A stretch of DNA of 64,000 nucleotides, from contig NZ_CP139301.1 of NCBI RefSeq assembly GCF_034092395.1, positions 248,001-312,000 on the forward strand. Reading direction: 5' to 3'. The translations under genes were made by a program, and so were the position numbers. Position 1 is the stretch's first letter; each line of letters begins with the position of its first letter. The notes under the pieces are model-generated. The model had not been told where the DNA came from. It saw only the letters and a program-made list of their open reading frames with translations, and ran no database searches. Positions 29,540-31,083 of this stretch are shown here, in pieces. Origin of the DNA: Prochlorococcus sp. MIT 1307 (GTDB taxonomy: Bacteria > Cyanobacteriota > Cyanobacteriia > PCC-6307 > Cyanobiaceae).

Positions 29540-30085
29540 TCATAAGCCAATTAACCTACAATTAAGTATTGCCAATGCCTCACTTGGTAAAAAAAGAAAA
29601 GTATCTAAAAGTATGTTTCCTGTACGGGGAACTATCGAAATCCCTACTAGTTTAACATTCCCATTTTTTTTAAGTGGATATCCTGATGCTTCATGTTCTT
29701 TACTTTTTACTTTATGGCTGATAAGTAAAGTTTTAACTATAAGATCTGGAGCATGAATTATAGAAAATATTGTGAACTTAAATCTTGCATCAAATTGAAG
29801 AGATATTTGGTTATTTGTTTTATCAAAAACCCCTTTCAGAAAAATAGGGTGAATCTTTATTTCTAGCCCTGGAAATAGTGGCAATCCTAATAACTTTGTA
29901 GTATCTGAATTGATTGAAGGGATAGAAAAAGTTCTAGGATTAAATGAGATGTCATACGAACTATTATCATTTTTGCGTTCACATATGCCTATTCCACCAC
30001 CTCCTTTCGCGTTGTAATAAAAAGTGGGGTACTTACCAATTTTCAATTCGCAACCTCTAAGGCTTATAAGCTCGATTTTATGCAT
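29540..30085 (-). CDS. Conserved hypothetical protein, 181 aa
   Basis: Not assigned to a family with confidence; shape resembles cyanobacterial/plastid proteins with a lipid-binding-like beta fold (DUF1997-type is one candidate). Seen: no signal peptide, a Gly-rich loop (YNAKGGGGIGICERK), alternating strands (ISLQFDARFKFTIFSI) and a hydrophobic C terminus (LLDTFLFLPSEALAIL). It is convergent with nothing and divergent from the PPC-glutaredoxin gene, with a 141-base promoter interval. Confidence 0.6.
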   Translation of the reverse strand: MHKIELISLRGCELKIGKYPTFYYNAKGGGGIGICERKNDNSSYDISFNPRTFSIPSINSDTTKLLGLPLFPGLEIKIHPIFLKGVFDKTNNQISLQFDARFKFTIFSIIHAPDLIVKTLLISHKVKSKEHEASGYPLKKNGNVKLVGISIVPRTGNILLDTFLFLPSEALAILNCRLIGL

Positions 30086-30226
30086 TGAGCAAAACTAGGA
30101 AGAATGCCTCTATTCAATGACTTTAACCTTTATAGCCTTTTTCTTGTTTTATTGAGCCTTTTTATTTATTCAACTAGCAATATCATGCCTTGATCCCTTA
30201 TTGTTGCTTTATACCGAATTTTTTTT

Positions 30227-30844
30227 ATGCAAACGCTGCCCTTCAATCTACCTCCTGGCAGCGACCTTCGTTTATCAATCGAGGAATTAGCTACTTCCCA
30301 ACGAATGTCTGGCTTTGTCTTGAGTATTGTTGGAAATCTATCGCGAGCATGTTTTCAATGCCCAGGTCGCACTAATCCAACAATATTGGAGGGAAATCTA
30401 GAAATTATAACTCTTAATGGTACTTTTTCTCCCAATAGTGTTCACCTTCATCTCAGTATTTCAGACGGTAACTGTCAGGTATGGGGTGGACACCTTGAGA
30501 ATGGTAGTGAGGTTCTTAAAGGTGCAGATATATTAGTTGGCTTCTTAGAAAGAAAACAATCAGATAAAGATATTAACTCATCACTACATTCGAATCCTAT
30601 TCATAAACTTGAGGTTTTTGTAATTCCAGGTTGTCCATGGTCCAATAGAGCTATTCGCATATTGCAATCCAACGGTATTCCTCATTCTGTCAATACAATT
30701 ACTGAAGATGAGGACTTTAATCTTTTAAAAAAGAGAAGTGGTCTTTCTACCTTTCCACAAATATTTATTGATGGTGTTCTATTAGGTGGTTATGAATCCT
30801 TATCAGAATTACAAAAAACCGGTAAATTAATAGATTTAAAGTGA
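30227..30844 (+). CDS. PPC (DUF296) domain fused to a monothiol glutaredoxin-like domain
   Basis: 205 residues with two domains. Residues 1-110 form a PPC/DUF296 domain, known from AT-hook proteins and free-standing bacterial homologues: MSGFVLSIVGNLSRACFQC, ITLNGTFSP, HLHLSISDGNCQVWGGHL. Residues 126-205 form a glutaredoxin fold: VFVIPGCPWSNRAIRIL with active site C136-P-W-S139 (monothiol in place of CPYC), STFPQIFIDG with the cis-Pro, and GG at 187-188 for glutathione binding. It overlaps the next small membrane gene by 4 bases. Confidence 0.82.
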   Translation: MQTLPFNLPPGSDLRLSIEELATSQRMSGFVLSIVGNLSRACFQCPGRTNPTILEGNLEIITLNGTFSPNSVHLHLSISDGNCQVWGGHLENGSEVLKGADILVGFLERKQSDKDINSSLHSNPIHKLEVFVIPGCPWSNRAIRILQSNGIPHSVNTITEDEDFNLLKKRSGLSTFPQIFIDGVLLGGYESLSELQKTGKLIDLK

Positions 30845-31083
30845 GCTTAACCTCTAAGGATACAGATGAGTTAAACTTATGGTCAGAAAAACCGTTTTGG
30901 TGTCAACCATGGTCGATAATACTTACTGGTATTTTAGTTATTATTATTAGCTTAATTTGGCCTGCAATAAAATGGATAACATTATTATTATCTATTATTA
31001 TAGTCTTATGGTGGATATTGTTTTTGTGGTTGGCTCCTAACCTTTACCGTGCCCAAATAGGAAACATCGATCAAGATAATTAG
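30841..31083 (+). CDS. Small two-helix membrane protein (DUF6737-like)
   Basis: 80 residues. N-terminal motif LWSEKPFWCQPWSI precedes two closely spaced hydrophobic helices (IILTGILVIIISLIW and WITLLLSIIIVLWWILFLWL). The W-x2-KP-x-WCQPW pattern is, as I recall, typical of a conserved cyanobacterial/plastid family (DUF6737). Function unknown. It begins within the last codons of the PPC-glutaredoxin gene (4-base overlap), so the two are probably translated together, which suggests a membrane partner for that protein. Confidence 0.75.
   Translation: MSLTSKDTDELNLWSEKPFWCQPWSIILTGILVIIISLIWPAIKWITLLLSIIIVLWWILFLWLAPNLYRAQIGNIDQDN

Follow-up and report, generated by a model that had tools for sequence, protein, structure and literature searches.

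A widespread picocyanobacterial PPC–glutaredoxin fusion with two fusion-linked cysteines and a possible thiol switch

Organization of the fusion locus

The window analysed here is a 64,000-nucleotide stretch of DNA from Prochlorococcus sp. MIT 1307 (contig NZ_CP139301.1, positions 248,001 to 312,000), and it sits in a single-contig genome of 2.03 Mb. On its plus strand, a 205-amino-acid open reading frame with no internal stops (window positions 30227–30844) encodes a PPC/PCC (DUF296) domain together with a glutaredoxin (Grx) domain, as judged from the reading frame, Pfam and homologues. The PPC domain (residues 4–105; 30236–30541, plus strand), which is also delineated by the AF2 model and by conservation, matches PF03479 with 71.4 bits (E = 1.1e-19, cut-off 25). 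The Grx domain (residues 126–205; 30602–30841, plus strand), assigned from profiles and fold, matches PF00462 across residues 129–185 with 51.6 bits (E = 1.1e-13), above the curated cut-off. An AF2 model of the monomer, built with 18 fused sequences (A1), has a pLDDT of 89.8 and a pTM of 0.54, and comprises two domains and a disordered linker wherein pLDDT falls below 50 (residues 111–124; 30557–30598, plus strand). Across 79 fused proteins, the stretch corresponding to residues 107–125 varies in length from 10 to 66 residues, with a median of 18.

The stop codon of the fusion overlaps by four bases (GTGA) the GTG start codon of a gene for an 80-amino-acid membrane-type protein (30841–31083, plus strand). 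This protein matches PF20522 (DUF6737; 57.5 bits, cut-off 27) and contains two long hydrophobic runs. On the other side of the fusion, a divergent gene on the minus strand (29540–30085) encodes a predicted β-barrel of 181 amino acids, which was singled out by its model, its linkage to the fusion and its residues Cys12 and Cys176. The 141 bp sequence separating the barrel gene from the fusion (30086–30226) was compared by eye among 11 loci, and no common motif was seen. An earlier note on this DNA had described both the fusion of PPC and glutaredoxin domains in a single frame and the overlap with a small membrane protein, and the Pfam matches and coordinates given above bear it out on each point.

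The fusion is an old and nearly universal trait of the family

After duplicates were dropped from 91 extracted loci, 79 distinct homologues remained, and all 79 are fused in one reading frame. This result, together with the uninterrupted frame in MIT 1307, excludes the possibility raised in the earlier note that the two domains are separate genes joined by a frameshift or sequencing error. Of 200 genomes from the order, 184 have a strong match to the fusion (best E ≤ 4.2e-39), and all have a Grx-level match of some kind. The 16 genomes without a strong match were searched again, together with ten that have one. One of the 16 (G085) is a close relative assembled as a single contig, and therefore loss of the fusion does occur; among the others, assembly gaps may be the cause. 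In six genomes (G063, G079, G091, G136, G155 and G160), one of the weaker strong matches splits in two, and both parts fall within a single open frame, judging from its length.

In a sample of 292 genomes from the phylum, PF03479 is found in 64, comprising all 36 genomes of the picocyanobacterial family and 28 of the 256 others, and each of the 36 family genomes carries the fusion. A scan of 84,980 species used patterns derived from one protein, which distant fusions can escape; among the 80 of 227 relatives listed, 17 are fused, all of them cyanobacterial, and the other 63 match the Grx part. No Grx was found in the PPC reading frame of 33 fetched non-fused loci, some of which come from the picocyanobacterial family itself. 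The gene is retained in Prochlorococcus-like and Synechococcus/Cyanobium genomes of marine and freshwater origin, very small ones included, and in the tree the MIT 1307 protein is nearest to the fused protein of Prochlorococcus sp. AG-363-C20. This distribution across the order and phylum samples marks the fusion as a long-standing and near-universal feature of the picocyanobacterial family rather than a local accident. Non-fused PPC genes also occur in some family genomes (L120, L125, L212–L215 and L228–L231), in some cases alongside the fusion (e.g. G030, G032, G046, G079 and G091) and in others where the fusion was not found (G119, G125, G141 and G181).

The suggestion in the earlier note that the fusion is unusual does not survive the counts for the order, and a DUF296-GRX architecture has been in print since 2009 (Alves et al., 2009; PMC2679010). 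As far as the available portion of that paper goes, it describes an architecture of the CPYC class confined to bacteria, possibly DNA-binding, with a suggested role in gene regulation. Its domain order and CPYC-class Grx match the present fusion, and the same portion makes no mention of PPC cysteines, picocyanobacterial range, barrel linkage or experiments.

Carriage on mobile elements was also considered and rejected. Three of 50,697 phage records match, and the sole two-domain match spans nrdB and the next gene of a Microcystis phage, where the PPC part was judged to be due to chance. Matches were obtained to 22 of 72,556 plasmid records, none of which covers 80% of the query, and the 15 of the 22 that were listed fall on the PPC side. 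All 28 matching loci on viral contigs match solely from residue 94 onward, and so no PPC domain was seen there.

A class I glutaredoxin half that probably relies on one cysteine

The active site of the Grx half is CPWS (residues 136–139), the one-cysteine site read by the earlier note. The catalytic Cys136 (codon 30632–30634, plus strand), cis-Pro177 and the glycines at 187–188 are each present in all 79 fused proteins, and Arg141 is kept in 76. Across the set, the active sites are CPWS (37), CPWC (21), CPFS (12), CPYS (7), CAWS (1) and CPYC (1). Proline thus follows the catalytic cysteine in 78 of 79 proteins, and the CGFS motif was found in none of the 79.

Among NCBIfam models, GRX_bact (TIGR02181) scores 49.2 bits versus 38.4 bits for the Grx4 CGFS model, and neither score reaches its cut-off (90 for the Glutaredoxin 3 equivalog TIGR02181 and 117.1 for Grx4). 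By sequence, then, the Grx half is best described as a relative of Grx3 and not Grx3 proper. The modelled fold aligns with E. coli Grx3 (1fov; rmsd 1.4, 80 aligned) and with Synechocystis GrxA (3qmx; rmsd 4.3, 86 aligned), at Z = 13.8 in both cases. The fold, the CPxC/CPxS site, the cis-Pro and the GG motif are traits of class I (CPYC type) Grx that are shared with these two proteins. Unlike them, the fusion mostly has Ser for its second Cys, has lost a helix region in part of the set (see below) and is tethered to a PPC domain. With CGFS monothiol (class II) Grx it has in common one active-site Cys, whereas its CPxS site and its lower score against the Grx4 profile set it apart.

The second active-site residue is Ser in 57 and Cys in 22 of the 79 proteins, and at least six changes between the two are seen on the tree. 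This toggling suggests that one cysteine suffices. In 20 of 79 proteins (L034–L036, L128, L176, L190–L192, L194–L197, L199–L201, L205 and L208–L211), the Grx half is about 12 residues shorter at 155–177 and retains the catalytic Cys, cis-Pro and GG. The 155–177 region includes a helix that contributes part of the glutathione site in other Grx proteins. This shortening, and the lack in most fused proteins of a Lys just before Cys136, make poor catalysis on glutathione possible. The MIT 1307 genome also encodes a separate CPFC Grx and a separate CGFS Grx. Elsewhere, the longer open frames of loci L217 and L218 (283 and 783 amino acids) contain a segment that resembles Grx and has a CPWG site.

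Two cysteines of the PPC domain accompany the fusion

PPC proteins typically form trimers and bind DNA, and we know of no settled role for the prokaryotic members. The PPC half of the AF2 model has the same fold as the single-domain proteins 2p6y (VCA0587; Z = 20.3, rmsd 1.1, 108 aligned), 2hx0 (Z = 18.3) and 2h6l (AF0104; Z = 13.9, rmsd 1.9, 106 aligned), the last of which is titled ‘metal-containing’. These proteins lack the Grx domain. For a comparison within the sequences, the alignment took in 34 rows of non-fused PPC proteins (33 loci), of which 33 bear a letter at each site. His73, His75 and His89 are invariant in all 79 fused and all 33 non-fused rows, and the HxH and GGH motifs of the fusion are likewise present in the non-fused rows (GGH in 33 of 33).

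In contrast, Cys45 (codon 30359–30361, plus strand) and Cys83 (codon 30473–30475, plus strand) distinguish fused from non-fused proteins. All 79 fused proteins have both, whereas among the non-fused rows Cys occurs at position 45 in 1 of 33 (L127, whose locus contains an internal stop) and at position 83 in 1 of 33 (the L130 fragment). The 10 non-fused PPC rows that come from the picocyanobacterial family have neither residue. A further difference is found at residues 98–101, which read K-G-A-D in most fused and T-T-A-E in most non-fused rows. Non-fused PPC proteins of family f31 (L103–L107, L109, L110, L112 and L115) have a Cys two residues past position 83, in KGKC or KGRC, that does not align with Cys83.

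The presence of Cys45 and Cys83 in fused proteins and their near absence from related PPC proteins suggest a built-in redox switch, and we regard this pair as the strongest clue to mechanism that the sequences suggest. The 79 fused rows belong to a single family and so do not represent 79 independent events; shared descent alone could preserve two cysteines in one family. The architecture itself is already known and the PPC cysteine pair looks new; neither the fusion-specific cysteines nor the barrel linkage was found in the open-licence literature that was searched.

Neighbouring genes as candidate partners

Gene neighbours were surveyed at 57 fusion loci with flanks of 4–6 kb, some of which were ended by contig ends. 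At 28 of the 57, the flank contains the DUF6737 gene, which in every case lies downstream of the fusion and has its orientation. By coordinates, it adjoins the fusion in 15 of the 25 family genomes that have it and is unlinked in 10; the remaining 11 of the 36 family genomes, all of genus g2 and all carrying the fusion, lack it. Across the phylum sample it is found in 102 of 292 genomes, mostly without any PPC-Grx protein. Outside the family, 30 DUF6737 loci revealed no steady neighbour, the commonest occurring in at most 4 of 30. The membrane partner that the earlier note drew from the gene overlap is thereby weakened.

Linkage of the predicted barrel gene to the fusion, seen at 28 of 57 loci, takes three forms: on the opposite strand in 12, downstream on the same strand in 15 (with gaps of about −26 to +50, start codons being estimated) and upstream on the same strand in one. 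It is present in 11 of the 292 phylum genomes, all from the picocyanobacterial family, and adjoins the fusion in seven of these. Counting near-duplicates, Cys12 is found in 39 of 39 barrel rows and Cys176 in 37 of 39. The two residues fall within the areas of the model's first and last strands, respectively.

The model of the 181-amino-acid barrel, built from 11 sequences (A3), has a pLDDT of 92.4. Its best alignment to outer-membrane barrels is with 1p4t (Z = 10.8, rmsd 3.2, 141 aligned); in a comparison aimed at a YceI- or lipocalin-like ligand-binding barrel, YceI-type proteins and BcnB score lower, at Z of 8–9, as with the YceI-type lipid binder 1wub (Z = 8.7, rmsd 3.7, 136 aligned). A Foldseek search with the model returned no matches at E ≤ 0.001, and any function assigned to the barrel is therefore a guess. 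No Pfam match was obtained (best E = 0.12, for one of 26 members), and no credible sequence match to a solved structure was found (best E = 0.64). The multiple arrangements of linkage and the two conserved cysteines make the barrel protein a better candidate partner than DUF6737, though it is absent from most sampled family genomes.

A proposed thiol switch and its alternatives

We tentatively propose that the one-cysteine Grx resets a cysteine switch in its own PPC domain, a self-resetting mechanism that could well prove wrong. The PPC part would assemble into the oligomer usual for PPC proteins, with a site lined by His residues. Under photosynthetic redox stress, Cys45, Cys83 or both might be oxidized to a disulfide or a glutathione adduct, and this change would alter the binding of PPC to a ligand, a partner or DNA. 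With Cys136 as its only working thiol, the tethered Grx would then reduce Cys45 and Cys83 again, and the linked barrel, with its own conserved Cys pair, would be the leading candidate for a partner or a second client. A disordered linker of variable length is what one would expect of a Grx that has to reach its target. It may be that Cys45 and Cys83 are unable to bond, or that Cys136 cannot reach them, and the invariant cysteines could alternatively be structural residues or metal ligands. Our search of the open-licence literature turned up no functional study of the fusion family, nor measurements of DNA binding or redox behaviour for any of its proteins.

One competing explanation places the client in trans. 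The PPC oligomer would scaffold several Grx domains that reduce or deglutathionylate Cys12 and Cys176 of the barrel, which may carry a lipophilic ligand. The linkage of the two genes at about half of the surveyed loci, their adjacency in 7 of 11 barrel genomes and the near-invariance of the barrel cysteines would fit such an arrangement. However, only 11 of 36 family genomes have the barrel whereas all 36 have the fusion, so the barrel cannot be a general client; the unlinked pair in 4 of 11 genomes and the empty Foldseek search also argue against this reading, which we consider rather unlikely. Distinctly unlikely, in our estimate, is that the protein is a general glutathione-dependent reductase tethered by PPC to DNA or a large assembly, with the PPC cysteines incidental. 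Record names annotate PPC proteins as DNA-binding, the class I traits are in place, and in the available portions of two sources the first Cys alone is enough for active class I Grx to act on glutathionylated substrates (PMC7138851, PMC8161271). Even so, this explanation leaves the strict association of Cys45 and Cys83 with the fusion unaccounted for, and the genome already has its CPFC and CGFS Grx proteins.

The earlier note suggested that a monothiol Grx of this kind might serve as an Fe-S cluster or glutathione sensor. The association of monothiol glutaredoxins with Fe-S clusters, on which it drew, holds for the CGFS proteins of class II. The Grx fold, and cluster binding by two class I CPYC proteins, T. 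brucei GRX1 and C. reinhardtii GRX2 (PMC8161271, in the portion available), speak for it. According to the same portions of the literature, however, a Pro directly after the catalytic Cys usually prevents cluster binding (PMC7138851, PMC8161271), and CrGRX2 required its second Cys (PMC8161271), a position that is mostly Ser here. The class of the Grx half, the near-invariant Pro and this Ser favour thiol exchange over Fe-S chemistry; with profile scores that are not those of a CGFS protein and a separate CGFS Grx in the genome, a cluster or glutathione sensor appears very unlikely. Most improbable of all is a two-gene membrane module of the fusion and DUF6737. The four-base overlap and the constant downstream orientation speak for such a module, but DUF6737 is missing from 11 family genomes that have the fusion, lies apart from it in 10 of 25 others, and is spread through the phylum mostly without PPC-Grx and with no recurrent neighbour.

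Extended to the whole order, the self-resetting switch would become a redox sensor in which cysteines of the PPC oligomer are the switch and the tethered one-cysteine Grx is the reset. Such a sensor would link the glutathione pool with the output of PPC and, for some of the family, with a redox-active barrel encoded by a linked gene, with no need for a separate Grx. In this full form we consider the scheme unlikely. Cysteines that accompany a fused redox enzyme offer a direct handle on whether a PPC domain is under redox control.
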